A stretch of 64,000 nt of DNA from assembly GCF_004117075.1 (NCBI RefSeq), contig NZ_CP026721.1:2046001-2110000 (forward strand). Direction: 5' to 3'. A model generated the notes under the pieces. It saw only the letters and a list, made by a program, of their open reading frames with translations, was not told the origin of the DNA and made no database searches. Below, piece by piece: positions 18,823-61,902 of the stretch (the stretch's first letter is position 1; each line of letters begins with the position of its first letter). The DNA comes from Fervidobacterium changbaicum (GTDB lineage: Bacteria; Thermotogota; Thermotogae; Thermotogales; Fervidobacteriaceae). The position numbers were made by a program, and so were the translations under genes.

Positions 18823-18854
18823 TATAGTACCACACAAATGCGGGGGGTGTGAGT

Positions 18855-19124
18855 ATGGCAAGAGATATCACTGTAAGAACTGTCATGGCTGTTCTTGTTG
18901 ACAAGCGAGAACAGGCTGCCGTTGAAGTTCAGAAACTGTTAACAGAATACGGTTGCTACATTAAGACACGTCTTGGGCTTCATGAAGGCGCAGGTCAGTA
19001 TTGTTCTCCAGTTGGTCTTATCATCCTTGAACTTGTCGATGATGAAACAAAGCACGAAGAACTCTGTCAAAAACTCAACGCTATCGATGGTGTCCAAGCA
19101 AAGTACATGAAACTCGAAATCTAA
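18855..19124 (+). CDS. TM1266-family small protein, putative iron-only hydrogenase system regulator
   Basis: An 89-residue protein that matches the small family found beside [FeFe]-hydrogenase maturation genes (TM1266 in T. maritima). The pattern is a ferredoxin-like/ACT-like fold: a beta strand (TVRTVMAVLVDKR), a helix, then GCYIKTRLGLHE and VGLIILELVDD. The molecular role is not established. The start is ATG 18855 after GGGGGG; a GTG lies 6 bases upstream. It is a monocistronic unit with a consensus promoter and its own terminator, transcribed away from the ABC-hydF operon. A second paralogue lies at 21916-22161. Confidence 0.85.
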   Translation: MARDITVRTVMAVLVDKREQAAVEVQKLLTEYGCYIKTRLGLHEGAGQYCSPVGLIILELVDDETKHEELCQKLNAIDGVQAKYMKLEI

Positions 19125-19156: not shown

Positions 19157-19185
19157 ATGGCGGGATTCTCCCGCCATTTTATTTT
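19157..19185 (+). terminator. Terminator of the TM1266-like gene
   Basis: ATGGCGGGA, TTC, TCCCGCCAT then TTTATTTT. The hydE stop on the other strand reaches into its T-run. Confidence 0.85.
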
Positions 19186-20224
19186 ACTTTTTAACTGGCT
19201 CGGCAAGGCTTTCCGTTTTCTTTCTGTATCCGTAACCCTCGCCTACTATTAAACCAACGCTTTTAATCATATGTTTTGTGCATTCAACACACGCTGTATC
19301 TCGTTCGAAAAGGCATATCTTACCCGGATAAAGAGAATAGTTTGGTCTGTAAGGATTGGGTGTAAGATTTGGCATGATAACATTCGCTCCGTACTTTAGT
19401 CCGTACTGTCTGCCAAGTGGGTTAATCGAACCGAGTGCAGTTGTAGCTGGTATATTTGCAGTCGGCACAACTATCCTTGCAAGTGCTATCATTCTCAAGG
19501 TTGTCTGCAAATCGCCACCGGTAGCATCTTTCAATGGCGTGTCGGGGTTTGGTATGAAAGGTCCTATACCTATCATGTCTGCATCGAGCTCTTTGAGAAA
19601 GACAAGATCTAAGGCAAGATCGTACGGTGTTTGACCGGGTAATCCAACCATGAAACCAGCCCCTGTTTCATAACCGAGCCTTTTCAGTTCGTACAGATGT
19701 GCTTTCCTGTTCTCAAGCGAATCCCCAGGATGCAATTTTGCGTACAGCTGCGGTGAAGCGGTTTCATGGCGCATCAAGTACCTGTCTGCACCAAGTTCTT
19801 TCCAGATTCTATATTCTTCAAATGTTCTTTCGCCCAAACTCAGGGTTATCGCAACGTCCAACTTTTTTATCTGCTGGATAATTTCGCACATCATTTCAGT
19901 TGTGTAGTACGGATCCTCACCTGATTGCAGCACTATAGTTTTTATTCCGAGCTGTGCTATCAGTTTCGCTCTTTCGATAATTTCTTCCGGGCTCATCCTG
20001 TACCTTGCAAGGTTCTTATTTTCCGCCCTTAAACCGCAGTACAAACAATGCTGTGTGCAGTAATTGGAAAACTCAATTATACCTCTCAGATGCACTTCCT
20101 CGCCAACGTACTTTCTTCTGATTTCATCAGCAGTCTTGAATATTTCTTCATCGTATCTATCAGTGCTAATTATGTGTGTTAGGTAATCTATGTCGACATT
20201 TTGAATCTTCTTTAGGTCTATCAT
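19184..20224 (-). CDS. hydE: [FeFe]-hydrogenase H-cluster radical SAM maturase HydE
   Basis: HydE is a radical SAM enzyme that acts on the HydG-made iron intermediate to help build the bridging dithiolate of the H-cluster. The radical SAM motif is CTQHCLYCGLR near residue 60, and the length of 346 residues fits. Later cysteines (DTACVECTKH) are of the kind that bind an accessory cluster in some homologues. The start is ATG 20224, 5 bases after GAGGTGA; the frame extends 3 codons upstream to a GTG. It is the last gene of the TM1266-like - hydG - small ORF - hydE operon. Confidence 0.95.
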   Translation of the reverse strand: MIDLKKIQNVDIDYLTHIISTDRYDEEIFKTADEIRRKYVGEEVHLRGIIEFSNYCTQHCLYCGLRAENKNLARYRMSPEEIIERAKLIAQLGIKTIVLQSGEDPYYTTEMMCEIIQQIKKLDVAITLSLGERTFEEYRIWKELGADRYLMRHETASPQLYAKLHPGDSLENRKAHLYELKRLGYETGAGFMVGLPGQTPYDLALDLVFLKELDADMIGIGPFIPNPDTPLKDATGGDLQTTLRMIALARIVVPTANIPATTALGSINPLGRQYGLKYGANVIMPNLTPNPYRPNYSLYPGKICLFERDTACVECTKHMIKSVGLIVGEGYGYRKKTESLAEPVKK

Positions 20225-20229
20225 AACAA

Positions 20230-20478
20230 TCACCTCGATGACTTTATCCTGAGAACTGCTTCAGCAACTAAACTCCGTTCCTCGGTTGATAGGTTTTTTT
20301 CACAAAAAGCTACGTACTTTTCGTCTTCGTAGACGATAAAACTTTCCCCGTATGTTTCTTCACCTGCTCTTGCGATGCAGGACAACCTTCGACCTATTTT
20401 TTCGCATACCCAGAGTTTCGCACCAATTTGCTGGGCGTAAGGAGTGAGTATTTGGCTGAGTCTTTCAAAATCTGACAT
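20230..20478 (-). CDS. Conserved small protein between hydG and hydE
   Basis: An 82-residue protein with no motif I recognise. It overlaps the hydG end by 14 bases and its stop is within the ribosome-binding region of hydE, so translation is coupled on both sides. The chain is mixed alpha/beta: an N-terminal helix (FERLSQILTPYAQQIGAKLW), strands around VCEKIGRRLSCIAR and SFIVYEDEKYVAFC, and a C-terminal helix. Two cysteines occur near residues 24 and 32 and one near 60. T. maritima has a small gene in the equivalent place between its maturase genes. The ATG at 20478 follows GGTGAG. Function unknown. Confidence 0.75.
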   Translation of the reverse strand: MSDFERLSQILTPYAQQIGAKLWVCEKIGRRLSCIARAGEETYGESFIVYEDEKYVAFCEKNLSTEERSLVAEAVLRIKSSR

Positions 20479-21874
20479 CTCTCTCACCGCTATCGATGCG
20501 CTCTAAGTATTTTTCAACCAAGTCCCTATTATTGACCCTTTCGAGTTCTTTCTGGATCAGCTCGTAACCGAGCTTTTTGGTTTCCTCGGAAGCGTAGTCG
20601 TTCAGGTATTCTCTTAGTGTGAAAAGTGCGTTTGGTGTACAGAACCTCTTGACAAAGCCTGGGATGGCGAACTCCATGAAATGTTCCCCAGTTCTTCCCA
20701 TCCTGTAACAGGCCGTGCAGAAGGAAGGTATGTATCCTTCCTTGAGCAGGTCTTGTATTACCTCCTCAAGTGACCTGTTATCGCCGAGTATGAACTGGCT
20801 CTTTCTCACTTTCTCTGGGTCATCCTGTGAATATGAACCTATGCCGATGCTCGAACCTCCATCTATTTGTGATACGCCCATCTTGAGTACTTCTTTTCTC
20901 AGATCAGCAGGTTCCCGCGCTGTGAGTATCATACCCGTGTAAGGAACAGCAAGCCTTATTATCGCCACCAGCTTTTTGAAGTCTTCATCGCTAACTTTGT
21001 GCGGTGGGTTGTAAGAAATCTCGCTTCCTACAGCTGGTTCAATTCTTGGGAACGAGATTGTGTGTGGACCAACACCGAAACGCTCTTCAAGGTGTATCGT
21101 ATGGTATATCAAGCCCATCACTTCGAATTTCCAGTTGAACAGTCCGAAGAGTGCACCGATACCGACATCATCGATACCTGCAAGCATCGCGCGGTCAAGT
21201 CCGTAGAGTCTCCAAGCGTAATTCGATTTCGGACCTCGTGGGTGTAATTTTTTGTATGTTGGTTGGTGATAGGTCTCTTGGAAAATCTGGAATGTTCCGA
21301 TTCCAGCCTCTTTGATGATCCTGTAGCCTTCTACAGTTTGCGGTGCAGCGTTGACATTTACCCTTCTTATTTCACCGTTTCCAACTTTCGTTTCGTATAT
21401 GATTCGGATAGTTTCTGCAATGAATTCAGGGCTGTAGCGTGGATGTTCGCCGTAAACGACAATAAGTCTTTTGTGTCCCTTTGATACCAAAGCCTTAACT
21501 TCGTTTCTTAGTTCTTCAAATGTTAGCGTCTTTCTGTAGACCTCTCTGTTCGAAGTTCTAAATCCGCAGTAAACGCAGTCGTTTATACAATCATTGCCGA
21601 TGTACAGTGGAGCGAAGAGCACAATTCTGTTGCCGTAGATACGCTCTTTAAGCGTGCGTGCAGCGTGGAAAATTTCTTCAAGCAGTTCTGGATCTTCAAC
21701 GTTGAGTAAAGTTGCGACCTCTTCTGGTTCAAGTCTGTTCTTGTTCAGCGACTTGTCGAGTATTTCCAAAACTTTCTTCCTGTCAGGATTCTTTGTCTTC
21801 TCGAGTAGTCCCCAAATCTCTTCCTCAGGAATAAATGTCTTTTCAGTATCGATTTCTTTTGTAAAAACGTACAT
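20465..21874 (-). CDS. hydG: [FeFe]-hydrogenase H-cluster radical SAM maturase HydG (tyrosine lyase)
   Basis: HydG cleaves tyrosine and makes the CO and CN ligands on a dangling iron. The 469-residue protein has the radical SAM motif CINDCVYCGFR near residue 95. It also has the C-terminal auxiliary cluster ligands CTACYRMG and, 22 residues on, KRFCTPN, which separate HydG from the thiamine enzyme ThiH. The start chosen is ATG 21874, 5 bases after GGAGGTGGG; an ATG 6 codons upstream lies before that site. It follows the second TM1266-like gene after about 40 bases. Confidence 0.97.
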   Translation of the reverse strand: MYVFTKEIDTEKTFIPEEEIWGLLEKTKNPDRKKVLEILDKSLNKNRLEPEEVATLLNVEDPELLEEIFHAARTLKERIYGNRIVLFAPLYIGNDCINDCVYCGFRTSNREVYRKTLTFEELRNEVKALVSKGHKRLIVVYGEHPRYSPEFIAETIRIIYETKVGNGEIRRVNVNAAPQTVEGYRIIKEAGIGTFQIFQETYHQPTYKKLHPRGPKSNYAWRLYGLDRAMLAGIDDVGIGALFGLFNWKFEVMGLIYHTIHLEERFGVGPHTISFPRIEPAVGSEISYNPPHKVSDEDFKKLVAIIRLAVPYTGMILTAREPADLRKEVLKMGVSQIDGGSSIGIGSYSQDDPEKVRKSQFILGDNRSLEEVIQDLLKEGYIPSFCTACYRMGRTGEHFMEFAIPGFVKRFCTPNALFTLREYLNDYASEETKKLGYELIQKELERVNNRDLVEKYLERIDSGERDVRF

Positions 21875-21915
21875 ACTTCCCACCTCCGACATATCTGTAA
21901 CAACCTTAGATTTTT

Positions 21916-22161
21916 CTAGTTAACAGCTACACTTTTGACCTTCACGCCTTTTATATTCCCCAACTTCCCTGTGAATGCTCCCATCGTATCGTTGTTTGTC
22001 TTCACTATGAGAAAGACGATTGCGATATTTTCATCCGGAACAGGGTATCCGACCCTGAGCTTGATAATATCTGCGTACTGGTGCAAAAGTTCGTTTACTT
22101 TTGAGTAGGCATTTTCTCTGTCGTGTACAATGATGTCAACGGTATAGTACCTTTCCTCCAC
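21916..22161 (-). CDS. TM1266-family small protein, second paralogue
   Basis: An 81-residue protein of the same family as the one at 18855-19124. It shares the layout of strand (YYTVDIIVHDR), helix (AYSKVNELLHQYADII), KLRVGYPV, AIVFLIVKTNND, helix, and a final VKVKSVAV. The start is GTG 22161, 7 bases after GGAGGTGA. It is the first gene of the hydG-hydE operon, directly downstream of a structured leader that ends in a conditional terminator. That position would suit an autoregulatory or ligand-sensing role, which is inference. Confidence 0.8.
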   Translation of the reverse strand: MEERYYTVDIIVHDRENAYSKVNELLHQYADIIKLRVGYPVPDENIAIVFLIVKTNNDTMGAFTGKLGNIKGVKVKSVAVN

Positions 22162-22206
22162 AATTGTTCACCTCCAAGTGATTTGACAACGGCGAGATAA
22201 ACAAAA

Positions 22207-22240
22207 ATCCCTCTTTCCTTTGAACCAAGGAAAGAGGGAT
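22207..22240 (-). terminator. Terminator hairpin of the hydG-operon attenuator (segments B and C)
   Basis: On the minus strand ATCCCTCTTTCCTT (22240-22227), GGTTCA loop, AAGGAAAGAGGGAT (22220-22207), then TTTTGTTT. A perfect 14-bp stem followed by a U-rich tract, about 45 nt before the first start codon of the operon. Confidence 0.9.
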
Positions 22241-22404
22241 AATCAGCCACCAAGAAAATGATGCGATGCGTAAGAAATGCGCTAATTCATTTAAGACAGT
22301 ACGTACAACCTTTACTTCCTATCCCTCTTTCCTTGGTGTCAGAGCGCTTTGCTCCTTCACCTCAGAAAGCTTACCAAAATACTTAGCGAAAATATTCACA
22401 TGTC
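22224..22404 (-). promoter_or_regulatory. Putative attenuator/riboswitch leader of the hydG-hydE operon
   Basis: The leader holds three mutually exclusive segments. Segment A (22337-22320, ACCAAGGAAAGAGGGATA) is perfectly complementary over 18 nt to segment B (22241-22224), giving an antiterminator. B is also complementary to C, giving the terminator. A third structure competes for A: a hairpin at 22369-22327 with stems CTTTC/GAAAG, GGTG/CACC and GAGC/GCTC. These stems are separated by two symmetric 3x3 internal loops, TGA/AAG and AAG/TGA. If that hairpin forms, A is hidden, B pairs C, and transcription stops. I do not recognise the aptamer class. A protein binding the tandem G-A loops is as likely as a small ligand. 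Confidence 0.75.
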
Positions 22405-22410
22405 ATATTT

Positions 22411-22440
22411 ATTATACCACGGAAGTTTATACGAATGCAA
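22411..22440 (-). promoter_or_regulatory. Promoter of the hydG-hydE operon
   Basis: On the minus strand TTGCAT, 18-base spacer, TATAAT with TGG in front of the -10. Predicted start near 22404, giving a leader of about 240 nt. Confidence 0.7.
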
Positions 22441-22582: not shown

Positions 22583-24349
22583 TTAGTTTACCTTTTCAGT
22601 TTCCTTTTGTTTTTGTGCTTTTCTAACAGCCTTTGACCTATCTGTGTAATGCGTATGGAGCAAGTGGTGTGCGATGTGGCTGTTTGGTTTTTCGAGGAAC
22701 TCTTCGTACAGCTTTATGATATCCGGGTTTTCGTGAGACCTTCTCAACACGCTTAGCTCGTCGATCGTGTAGATTGCCTGTGCGCGCTTCTTGAGGATGT
22801 CTGGATCAAGGCTCTTGGGCTGACCGCCGCCACCGATACAACCACCGAGACAGGCCATTATTTCAACGAAGTCGTAGTACCTCTTACCTTCCTTCATTTC
22901 TCTAAGCAGTCTCTTCACGTTCGCCATACCGTGGGCAACAGCAACCTTTATTTTCTTACCTTTGATATCAATTTCAGCCTCTCTCACACCGTCAAGACCA
23001 CGTACGCTGTCGAAGACAAGTTTTGGCAATTTTTCTCCGGTCAGAACTTCGTAAGCGGTTCTGAGGGCTGCTTCCATAACACCACCGGTAACACCAAACA
23101 GCGCACCCGCACCAGTTGATGTACCAAGTGGGTTGTCGTACTGTTCTTCGGGCAAGTTGACAAATGGAATGCCTTTGAGTTTGATGAGTTTTCCAAGTTC
23201 TCTTGTTGTGATTACGTAATCTGTTACTTTGATTCCGTCTACAAGTTGCTGAGGTCTGGTGATTTCGTCCTTCTTAGCTGTACACGGCATGATAGAGACC
23301 ATTACGATATCTTCTGGCTTAACTCCAATTTTCTGTGCGAAGTATGTCTTGACAACGGAGCTCATCATCTGCTGTGGAGATTTCGCCGTTGAGAGGTGTT
23401 CTCTAAGTTCTGGCCATTCTTTTTCCATTTCATTTACCCAACCTGGACAGCAGCTTGTAAACATGGGGAATTTTCCACCGTTTTGGAGTCTATGAATGAG
23501 TTCGTAGCCTTCCTCCATTATGGTAAGGTCTGCTGCAAAGTTCGTATCGAAGACGTAATCAAATCCAAGCCTTCTTATTGCCGCTACCATCTTTCCCGTG
23601 CTTATTGTCCCAGGCTCCATTCCAAATTCCTCACCTATTGCAACTCTAACGGATGGAGCTGTTTGTGCAACGTATACTTTACCAGGTTCTTTACTGTTAA
23701 GCATTTTCCAAACTTTCTTCCAATCTGGTGCTTCGTAAATTGCACCTACTGGACACAGATTAGCACACTGACCGCAGCTGATACAATCCGTCTCATAAAG
23801 CGGGATACCGAATTCGGTTTCAGGAAGAGATTCATATCCACGTTCAATCATCGAGTAGATATTCATGCCCTGTATCTCACTACAGACTCTAACGCATCTT
23901 TGACATTTAATACATTTCGAAAGGTCCCTGTGAACAGATGGACTGCTCATATCGATTTCTTTATCTAGAGCAACATTTACACCAAATATTGGTTGCACAT
24001 CGTACATGTGAACAAGCTTTTGCAATTCACAGCGACCATCTGCTTCACAGTACATACATTCGTGAGGATGGTTGGACATTATCAAAGAGAGGTTGAACCT
24101 TACGGCGCTTTCTACTCTTTCTGTGTTTGTCTTTATCTTCATCCCATCTGCGACTTTTGTTGTACACGCAGGTTGGAGTGTTCTTGCTCCTTCGATCTCA
24201 ACAACACAGATTCTGCACGCACCAATTGGTTCGAGTTCTGGATGGTGACAAAGCGTTGGAATTTTGAAACCTAAGTCAGCTGCCGCTTCGAGGACTGTTT
24301 TGTTTTCTGGAACTTGATAAGGCTTGTCGTTGATATAGATAGTTACCAT
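22583..24349 (-). CDS. hydA: [FeFe]-hydrogenase catalytic subunit
   Basis: Reduces protons to H2 with electrons from ferredoxin or an NADH-linked partner. The 588-residue layout resembles clostridial CpI. There is an N-terminal [2Fe-2S] domain (Cys34, 45, 48, 62) and a His-ligated cluster (HPHECMYCEADGRC). Two [4Fe-4S] sets follow (CIKCQRCVRVC; CISCGQCANLC). The H-cluster domain has TSCCPGW, MPCTAKKDE and MACLGGCIGGGG, the three signatures that hold the active site, all intact. It lacks the long C-terminal extension of T. maritima trimeric HydA, and no hydB or hydC neighbour is present. It may be a monomer or pair with subunits encoded elsewhere. ATG follows GGAGGTGG. Confidence 0.96.
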   Translation of the reverse strand: MVTIYINDKPYQVPENKTVLEAAADLGFKIPTLCHHPELEPIGACRICVVEIEGARTLQPACTTKVADGMKIKTNTERVESAVRFNLSLIMSNHPHECMYCEADGRCELQKLVHMYDVQPIFGVNVALDKEIDMSSPSVHRDLSKCIKCQRCVRVCSEIQGMNIYSMIERGYESLPETEFGIPLYETDCISCGQCANLCPVGAIYEAPDWKKVWKMLNSKEPGKVYVAQTAPSVRVAIGEEFGMEPGTISTGKMVAAIRRLGFDYVFDTNFAADLTIMEEGYELIHRLQNGGKFPMFTSCCPGWVNEMEKEWPELREHLSTAKSPQQMMSSVVKTYFAQKIGVKPEDIVMVSIMPCTAKKDEITRPQQLVDGIKVTDYVITTRELGKLIKLKGIPFVNLPEEQYDNPLGTSTGAGALFGVTGGVMEAALRTAYEVLTGEKLPKLVFDSVRGLDGVREAEIDIKGKKIKVAVAHGMANVKRLLREMKEGKRYYDFVEIMACLGGCIGGGGQPKSLDPDILKKRAQAIYTIDELSVLRRSHENPDIIKLYEEFLEKPNSHIAHHLLHTHYTDRSKAVRKAQKQKETEKVN

Positions 24350-27586: not shown

Positions 27587-28606
27587 ATGCATAAAGTAAG
27601 ACTCGGCATCGTGGGGTGTGGAATTGCGGCACGTGAGTTACACTTTCCTGCACTCGTTCAACTTACAGACAAGTTCGAAATCACAGCGGTCACAAGTAGA
27701 AGAAGAGAAAGGGCAGAAGATTTTGCAAGCATGGTTAAAGACGCTCTTGGATACGAGCCTGCTGTTTTCGATTCGTACGAAGAACTGCTCGAGTCAGGAA
27801 GCGTAGATGCGGTTGATTTGACACTTCCCATCGAATTGAATGTGCCATTCATATTTAAGGCCGTGGAAAAAGGTATGCATGTGATTTGCGAAAAACCAAT
27901 ATCCACAGATGTTGCAAGCGGGAAAAAGGTAGTTGAACTATCAGCAAATACCGACAAGGTGATTTACATTGCAGAGAACTACAGGCACGATTTCAGATTC
28001 AACAAGATAAGAACGTTCATCGATGAAAATACCATAGGTCGACCTATCTTTGTCGCTTGGCACCTTTGGATTGGTATGGATAAGTCGAACAAGTACGTGC
28101 AAACCGAATGGCGGCAAAGGCCGAAACACATAGGTGGATTTTTGTCAGATGGTGGTGTTCACCACATAGCTGCACTAAGGGTCATCTTCGGAGATATAGC
28201 ATGGGTGAGTGGTGTGACAAAAAGGGTCTCTGATTACCTCGGAGATGATGATACGTTATCTACTGTTTTCGAGTTCAACAGCGGTGTGGTAGGTAACTAC
28301 ACAGTTTCCTATGCCGTTAGCGGTAAGCAATATTTCGAGATTGTAGGAACAGACGGAAGAATCTATCTTGACGAAGAAAGAATCACAGTCCGTGGGCAAA
28401 GAGAAGAGACGATAAATATACCAAACCAAAACACATTCAAGAACGAGTTCGAAGATTTCTACAGGGTAGTTAAACATGGCGAACCAAACATTTTAGGTCA
28501 CCCTGTTGAAGCTTTAAAAGACCTTTCATTCTTTGAAGCGGCAATTAAATCGAAAGGTACGAGAATAGAAATTGAAGACCTGTTAAGGTCAACTACCCCC
28601 GACTGA
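27587..28606 (+). CDS. Gfo/Idh/MocA family NAD(P)-dependent oxidoreductase, C-terminus altered by IscB element
   Basis: A 339-residue dehydrogenase. The Rossmann motif is VGCGIAARELHFPAL and the conserved catalytic-lysine motif is CEKPISTD. A C-terminal alpha/beta domain follows, with GGFLSDGGVHHIAAL. Such enzymes oxidise sugars or related hydroxy compounds; the substrate is unknown. ATG 27587 follows AAGGGGTGAG. The last six codons (RSTTPD) are encoded by the left end of the inserted IscB element, so the native C-terminus has been replaced. The loss looks small because the last fold element (LSFFEAAIKSKG) is still present. Confidence 0.88.
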   Translation: MHKVRLGIVGCGIAARELHFPALVQLTDKFEITAVTSRRRERAEDFASMVKDALGYEPAVFDSYEELLESGSVDAVDLTLPIELNVPFIFKAVEKGMHVICEKPISTDVASGKKVVELSANTDKVIYIAENYRHDFRFNKIRTFIDENTIGRPIFVAWHLWIGMDKSNKYVQTEWRQRPKHIGGFLSDGGVHHIAALRVIFGDIAWVSGVTKRVSDYLGDDDTLSTVFEFNSGVVGNYTVSYAVSGKQYFEIVGTDGRIYLDEERITVRGQREETINIPNQNTFKNEFEDFYRVVKHGEPNILGHPVEALKDLSFFEAAIKSKGTRIEIEDLLRSTTPD

Positions 28607-28880
28607 AGTCGAGGGCTTGTAAAAGCCCTGGTTGACCAGCCTAAGCACCGGACCCAAAGGACAAGGGGACGAAGGTGCTACGTTGGTAGTAGGCTCAAGA
28701 CCCACTCCGGAATGCTTCTCCAGTCCCGGACACTGGAAGTGCTGGTTGCAGACAACCTTTGGGGTGTGGGCGAAACGGATCAGCACACGTGCCGGCTACC
28801 AACATTGGCGAGGAGAGTGCTAAAGTGAGTCCGCTTTAGCACGTCACAAGGCCCGTAAGGGCATTTTCATGGAGTGAGAT
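28587..28880 (+). ncRNA. HEARO RNA / IscB omega RNA, copy 1
   Basis: The 280-290 bases before iscB have no plausible ORF of their own and are rich in hairpins. Examples are CCCCGACT/AGTCGAGGG, GGGCTT/AAGCCC, GTGCTAAAG/CTTTAGCAC and GCCC/GGGC just before the start codon. Position, size and structure fit the HEARO RNA, later identified as the omega RNA that guides IscB. The guide would be the flanking host sequence just upstream of 28587. Differences from copy 2 fall largely in loops or keep pairing. Confidence 0.85.
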
Positions 28881-39186: not shown

Positions 39187-39202
39187 TGAAAAATGAATAT
39201 CC

Positions 39203-39371
39203 CCTACCCTTAAAGGTGCGTAAGCTTAAAAGGGAACTCCGGTGAAAATCCGGGACGGTCGGGCCACCGTGAGTGTGGACGAAACCTGCAATATGCCACT
39301 GGCTGCAAAGCTGGGAAGGCGCAGGGAGTAGGATGATACACGAGTCGGGAGACCTGCCTTTAAGGGATGGG
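39203..39371 (+). promoter_or_regulatory. Cobalamin (B12) riboswitch aptamer
   Basis: The consensus blocks of the AdoCbl/B12 riboswitch are present in order: AAAGGGAACTCCGGTGAAAA, TCCGGGACGGTCGGGCCACC and GTGAGTGTGG. They are followed by GCCACTGGCTGCAAAGCTGG, GAAGGCGCAGGGAGTAGGAT and the final AGTCGGGAGACCTGCC. The closing P1 helix is perfect: CCCTTAAAGG with CCTTTAAGGG. It is followed at once by an intrinsic terminator, so ligand binding most likely ends transcription before the sucCD-like genes. Confidence 0.95.
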
Positions 39372-39373
39372 CA

Positions 39374-39407
39374 CCCCAAAAACCGCAGATTTTTGGGGGA
39401 ATTTTTC
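39374..39407 (+). terminator. Riboswitch-controlled terminator
   Basis: CCCCAAAAA, CCGCAGA loop, TTTTTGGGG, then GAATTTTT. It lies between the B12 aptamer and the sucC ribosome-binding site. Confidence 0.9.
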
Positions 39408-61608: not shown

Positions 61609-61902
61609 TTATCACTCCATGAAAATGCCCTAACGGGCCTTGTGACGCGCTAAAGCGGTCTCACTTTAGCACTCTCCTCGCCAATGTTGGTAGCCGGCGC
61701 GTGTGCTGGTCCGTTTCGCCCACACCCCAAAGGTTGTCTGCAACCAGCACTTCCAGTGTCCGGGACTGGAGAAGCATCCCGGAGTGGGTCTTGAGCCTAC
61801 TACCAACGTAGCACCTTCGTCCCCTTGTCCTTCGGGTCCGGTGCTTAGGCTGGTCAACCAGGGCTTTTACAAGCCCTCGACTTCAGTCGGGGGTAGTTGA
61901 CC
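61609..61902 (-). ncRNA. HEARO RNA / IscB omega RNA, copy 2
   Basis: Same hairpin series as copy 1. The stem GTGCTAAAG/CTTTAGCAC becomes GTGCTAAAG/CTTTAGCGC, which still pairs with a G-U. The hairpin GCCC-GTAA-GGGC becomes GCCC-GTTA-GGGC, a loop change only. The guide would derive from the end of the amidohydrolase gene just upstream of 61902 on the minus strand. Confidence 0.83.

Follow-up and report, generated by a model that had tools for sequence, protein, structure and literature searches.

How do cells match the assembly of the H-cluster, which makes free CO and cyanide, to their need for it? To our knowledge, little is known on this point. The question is raised here by a leader of ~240 nt in the window, i.e., the whole stretch of 64,000 nt of Fervidobacterium changbaicum DNA that we analysed. 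We lean, with slightly better than even confidence, towards the view that this leader acts in cis as a regulatory RNA, belongs to a class absent from Rfam, and shuts off the genes of [FeFe]-hydrogenase maturation, with the TM1266 protein as its likeliest partner. This provides a concrete candidate switch before the maturation genes of many H2-producing bacteria, and a possible function for TM1266, whose structure is solved and whose role has been a blank since 2006.

Organisation of the operon and its leader

The leader lies on the minus strand between a [FeFe] hydrogenase gene (22583-24349) and the operon TM1266-hydG-hydX-hydE, all on the same strand. The initial annotation took the regulated genes to be those building the H-cluster, and family models confirmed this for the two radical SAM maturases, hydG (20465-21892; TIGR03955, 543.6 bits) and hydE (19184-20233; TIGR03956, 375.4 bits). 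The first gene (21916-22161), our candidate regulator, follows a ribosome binding site read directly (GGAGGTG, 22169-22175). It belongs to the hyd_TM1266 family, of NikR_C/ACT-like fold (PDB 2nzc), and exceeds the cut-offs of TIGR03959 (103.5 vs 60.8 bits) and PF21699 (100.6 vs 27). The conserved gene between hydG and hydE (20230-20487), here called hydX, encodes an 85-aa protein that matched no Pfam or NCBIfam family; weak homologs were found by tblastn at the same position in many genomes, and it is a candidate unnamed maturation gene. Just past hydE, on the plus strand (18849-19124), there is a second, divergent TM1266-like protein of the CPF_0552 family (NF052672, 113 bits). Paralogs of this type are present in most Thermotogota having TM1266.

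The leader gathers, in this order, a promoter-like site, a Rex-like palindrome, a sensor hairpin, a spacer, and an intrinsic terminator (minus-strand features throughout). The promoter-like sequence (22411-22440), read directly, consists of TTGCAT (22440-22435), 18 nt, and TATAAT (22416-22411); it was missed by a consensus scan because its first hexamer matches at just 3 of 6 bases. The covariance-model match of the sensor spans 22325-22371, with a helix at 22369-22327 supported by folding and covariation. Alignment and covariance model divide it into a 5' half, C-UGA-GGUG-AAG-G (22354-22365), and a 3' half, C-UGA-CACC-AAG-G (22331-22342). The latter overlaps segment A (22320-22337), the 5' strand of the antiterminator, which is thus common to the sensor helix. 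Segment B (22224-22241) can pair either with A, as antiterminator, or with segment C (22207-22220), the 3' arm of the terminator. The terminator (22240-22207) has a stem of 14 bp and a loop of 6 nt and is followed by TTTTGTTTAT. The whole leader folds more stably than 200 out of 200 shuffled sequences (z = -4.1).

This layout agrees with the segments and positions of the initial annotation. A contains 14 nt (22334-22321) identical to C (22220-22207), and its complementarity to B extends over the full 18 nt (18/18). The sensor does fold as described, with stems of 5, 4, and 4 bp separated by UGA/AAG and AAG/UGA 3x3 loops (or 6, 4, and 5 bp when the conserved U.G and G.U wobbles at the loop edges are counted as pairs). 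The loops were characterised as tandem G-A; each one in the window sensor opposes one G.A and one A.A, and the tandem G.A form (GAG) is common among its relatives. Our covariance model matched the window only here (44.1 bits, E = 5.3e-9, sole match in 64 kb), the window copy being itself among the 81 training rows. Both the degenerate-pattern scan and the covariance-model search found a single copy in the genome of F. changbaicum.

Sensor, antiterminator, and terminator are mutually exclusive, as in a transcription attenuator, and are conserved in relatives. At the point where B is transcribed and C is not yet, the computed energies favour A:B over the sensor fold by 9.1 kcal/mol; once the leader is complete, they favour sensor plus terminator over A:B by 10.8 kcal/mol (both for 37 C, the host being a thermophile). 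In the mechanism we propose, B would displace an unaided sensor and pair with A, and RNA polymerase would read through. If a partner held the sensor, A would be hidden, B would pair with C, and transcription would stop before TM1266-hydG-hydX-hydE.

The sensor covaries in Thermotogota

A protein search retrieved 30 loci of relatives. In 25 of them, a near-invariant CTGAGRTGRAGG-loop-CTGACAYCRRGG stands no more than a few hundred nt from where TM1266 begins. A degenerate pattern gave 40 matches in 37 of 61 relatives, and none when reversed. The covariance model R1 identified the motif in 64 of 103 Thermotogota genomes, representing 27 of 38 genera. Pairing fills 91.7% of the cells in an alignment of 44 sequences and drops to 45-60% once the strands are slid; 8 of 15 pairs show compensatory changes. 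An alignment of 81 sequences from three groups gave similar results: 87.2% paired (43-61% slid), both sides changed in 10 of 14 pairs, and a covariation score of 0.515 vs 0.193, even if the central-stem pairing of the Clostridia rows is inflated because these were picked partly by complementarity.

Both strands of the sensor share one framework, C-URN-4bp-RRG-G, which makes it nearly two-fold symmetric around the central 4 bp; these vary freely yet remain paired. Each half is partly self-complementary, and we considered a fold into two separate hairpins; it was set aside, the RNAalifold consensus and the covariation both corresponding to the long hairpin. The searches of homologous leaders showed covariation in the sensor stems and the repeated occurrence of the entire layout, in line with the initial reading of this leader as a transcription-control element: a separate sensor hairpin with three mutually exclusive pairings.

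The fetched matches with readable genes all precede hydG, hydF-aspA, hydA, or TM1266. A single context could not be read, that of a copy at a contig end (L084/L163, G058:C38), and this copy directly precedes a stretch resembling a transposon-linked RNA. Searches by tblastn with the proteins of the window showed the order TM1266-hydG-hydX-hydE after most Thermotogota matches. At L086 and L087 hydA heads the operon, giving hydA-TM1266-hydG, and in Mesoaciditoga-like genomes and in family f11 (L083, L164, L171, L173, and L178) hydG follows directly, with no TM1266 in between. Thermotoga, Mesoaciditogales, and others have a second copy before hydF-aspA (L081, L082, L161, L162, L165-L167, and L177). 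At all of these but L162, we read downstream of hydF, and under the same RNA motif, a gene resembling aspartate ammonia-lyase (aspA), a hint that ammonia or aspartate may take part in assembling the H-cluster. In Mesoaciditogales (L100, L101, L121, L083, and L164), the 3' strand of the motif resembles the Shine-Dalgarno of a short upstream ORF, which overlaps a terminator before hydG; this is possibly a translation-coupled attenuator.

Distribution in other phyla

We scanned genomes for exact matches and found one locus in Ignavibacteriales and one in Neomarinimicrobiota, each preceding a TM1266-like gene. Matches in Butyrivibrio, Pseudomonas, Gemmatimonadaceae, and others were mostly inside unrelated ORFs and were dropped as chance hits. 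R1 was positive in 15 of 199 and 4 of 198 genomes of the former two phyla, nearly always directly before TM1266. In the phylum of locus L111, the motif is found at 19 of 20 TM1266 loci (the remaining one is cut by a contig end) and at 0 of 10 loci of the divergent TM1266 paralog. TM1266 is encoded in half of 398 genomes from the phylum of the Butyrivibrio match, and R1 was positive in 2 of these 398.

Leaders in Clostridia have the same framework with other central pairs, e.g., C-UGA-CUUA-GAG-G ... C-UGA-UAAG-GAG-G, and we therefore built a relaxed model, R2. A framework scan demanding at least 3 of 4 paired central bases was positive in 29 of 110 Clostridia upstream regions; there were no matches on the opposite strand or with the reversed framework, and 0.1 on average in shuffles. 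Because this version required central pairs, we redid the scan without the pairing demand: 18 of 48 half-motif pairs were complementary at all four positions of the central stem, vs 2.7 expected and a maximum of 9 in 1,000 shuffles. With E ~0.01 or better, R2 identified 43 of the 110 loci, including 14 that had no part in its training set, and all its 67 matches in these loci are on the sense strand. Seven loci have tandem copies. Many Clostridia with TM1266 showed no recognisable motif within 600 nt. Judging by these sequence matches, the element is not restricted to Thermotogota and is found before hydrogenase-maturation genes in at least three bacterial lineages.

Expression platforms differ between lineages

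Of 54 instances of the motif in Thermotogota, 48 are followed by a terminator (2.0 in shuffles). Among these 48, A and B form at least 8 contiguous pairs in 47, vs 14 by chance, and 42 of these 47 pairings extend into the sensor. In other phyla we found the terminator in 9 of 23 instances, all nine with A:B pairing (0.9 by chance). Direct A:B pairing is less regular in Clostridia (at least 8 pairs in 9 of 24, vs 3.5 by chance), so the read-out may differ there. The sensor continues, through its 3' strand, directly into the Shine-Dalgarno of TM1266 at L085, L104, L182, and L183. In some lineages the sensor may thus mask the Shine-Dalgarno instead of controlling termination: where this terminator is lacking, the 3' strand of the sensor would carry the Shine-Dalgarno, and its stabilisation would block translation. 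A stabilised sensor should mean off because the terminator and Shine-Dalgarno arrangements both predict it; we infer this sign of control, and termination in the cell, from sequence.

TM1266 as the candidate partner

In Thermotogota, the presence of the motif closely follows that of TM1266. All 64 motif-bearing Thermotogota genomes encode a TM1266 above the curated cut-off, several of them outside the motif operon. There are 70 Thermotogota genomes with hydG; 65 have TM1266, and 64 of these have the motif. The other five, all of genus g36, have neither TM1266 nor the motif, their hydG leaders being negative with both R1 and R2, and the sister species G099 has both. This joint loss counts as one event, since motif and TM1266 are usually neighbours and a single deletion is possible. 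Besides hydG, TM1266 is the only fully constant genomic companion of the motif. The initial annotation had listed the TM1266-like protein among several possible signals, and this co-occurrence makes it a serious candidate for the signal carrier.

TM1266 consists of one NikR_C/ACT-like domain (pLDDT 94 for its model), is roughly neutral in charge, and has 2nzc and the C-terminal domains of NikR as its nearest structures. We found in it no DNA-binding domain and no known RNA-binding fold. It shares the fold of the NikR C-terminal domain (TM-score of about 0.84 to 2bj3), but these 81 aa lack the ribbon-helix-helix DNA-binding domain of NikR. Protein and RNA are both symmetric and always share a genome; the first, a ligand sensor, lacks a nucleic-acid target and the second lacks a known reader, which suggests that one reads the other. 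This fit is an argument, not a proof, and the domain could bind the signal or another protein instead of RNA. A dimer of TM1266 on the symmetric hairpin would repress the operon that encodes it and also act in trans on the copies that precede hydF-aspA, hydA, or hydG, as PyrR does for pyr genes. The full proposal is a conjecture to which we give almost an even chance: TM1266, a stand-alone ligand-sensing domain that lost or never had a DNA-binding domain, would bind a two-fold symmetric RNA hairpin as a repressor and so control hydrogenase maturation, either through attenuation or by covering the ribosome binding site; this would apply to Thermotogota, Clostridia, and the FCB group alike.

The same data can be read with a different ligand of the hairpin. 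It might be a true riboswitch that binds a small molecule or ion of H-cluster building (such as the iron-cyanide/CO synthon, iron, or SAM products), TM1266 being merely co-regulated. The leader has what one expects of a riboswitch, namely small non-canonical loops that are strongly conserved and an expression platform; its target genes belong to one pathway, and tandem copies like those of Clostridia are seen in some riboswitches. However, two identical halves with a free 4-bp centre suggest a homodimer over a pocket for one molecule, and a riboswitch does not account for TM1266 being so constant a companion, nor for the lack of the motif in the one group that keeps hydG and has lost TM1266. 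We regard this explanation as rather unlikely, while giving it appreciable weight. That another protein binds the hairpin (ribosomal, general RNA-binding, or a moonlighting maturase) seems improbable. Proteins commonly bind symmetric hairpins with G.A loops, and HydF, HydE, and HydG are all present in the operons read, but the motif is missing from the five genomes with hydG and without TM1266, and there is no hydG, hydE, or hydF within 1.4 kb of several FCB copies that stand before TM1266.

It is very improbable that the palindromic repeats are DNA operators of a symmetric repressor next to a plain terminator, with incidental RNA pairing. A palindromic Rex-like site does lie just upstream, but the motif itself comes after the promoter-like site and ahead of the A:B:C pairings, its G.U pairs have fixed positions, its 4-bp centre can take any sequence that pairs, and in some genomes it overlaps the Shine-Dalgarno. 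Nor would a DNA palindrome need to be on the sense strand in 67 out of 67 R2 matches. Coming back to TM1266, if it does read the RNA, its NikR_C/ACT-like domain would be a new kind of RNA-binding regulator; if it does not, the leader would be a new riboswitch class awaiting its ligand. In both cases, it offers a practical means to express or derepress [FeFe]-hydrogenase maturases.

Comparison with known regulatory RNAs

The initial annotation did not recognise the sensor, and neither did Rfam 15. No family passed the gathering cut-off in the window leader, in seven Thermotogota loci, or in twenty other loci (nineteen of Clostridia and L200), and a search of eleven Clostridia leaders was negative up to E = 0.5. 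We also found no description of the leader in the open-access literature searched, including PMC8632094, PMC11109978, PMC3766115, PMC3636130, and PMC9431212. As far as these searches show, this apparent off-switch for hydrogen metabolism is unrecorded.

The closest analogy among the systems we compared concerns logic rather than sequence. The PyrR attenuator (RF00515) has the same three states, with a sensor (anti-antiterminator), an antiterminator, and a terminator; its stabilised sensor is also off, the regulator gene is also first in the operon, and extra copies precede other genes of the pathway. Yet the sequence and shape of the sensor differ, and TM1266 is not a PyrR-type protein. The RF00515 model scored 23.9 bits vs a cut-off of 54, had no match at the cut-off in seven Thermotogota homologs or twenty other loci, and is also rejected by gene content, the copies with readable context preceding hyd genes or TM1266 and not pyr genes. 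The RAT hairpins of LicT, SacY, and BglG, read by a protein dimer, are likewise short, nearly symmetric, with internal loops, and overlap a terminator arm. However, binding to RAT prevents termination, whereas stabilisation should cause it here, and there is no Rfam match in this leader and no LicT-type protein in the operon. As for the kink-turn comparison made initially, the shared trait is the presence of non-canonical G.A pairs beside a short helix. It does not hold further: loops of the window type are symmetric 3x3 and occur twice in mirror arrangement, and we rejected the kink-turn because neither alignment shows the asymmetric 3-nt bulge.

Rex-like sites and other RNAs of the window

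The palindrome upstream of the sensor, ATGTGAATATTTTCGCTA (22384-22401, minus strand), matches 11 of the 14 positions of the consensus TTGTGAA-N4-TTCACAA and is a putative Rex site. Sites with at least 10 of 14 consensus positions were found within 90 nt upstream of the motif in 35 of 53 Thermotogota leaders, vs about 3.6 in shuffles, which suggests redox control of initiation on top of attenuation. In Caldicellulosiruptor bescii, Rex binds upstream of hydG in gel shifts, with 181 nt separating the site from the first gene, which is annotated there as a putative regulator of CopG type (PMC6391272).

Elsewhere in the window, we identified two HEARO RNAs (RF02033), at 28588-28823 on the plus strand and 61666-61901 on the minus strand (112 and 118 bits), and a cobalamin riboswitch at 39197-39375 on the plus strand (112.5 bits).
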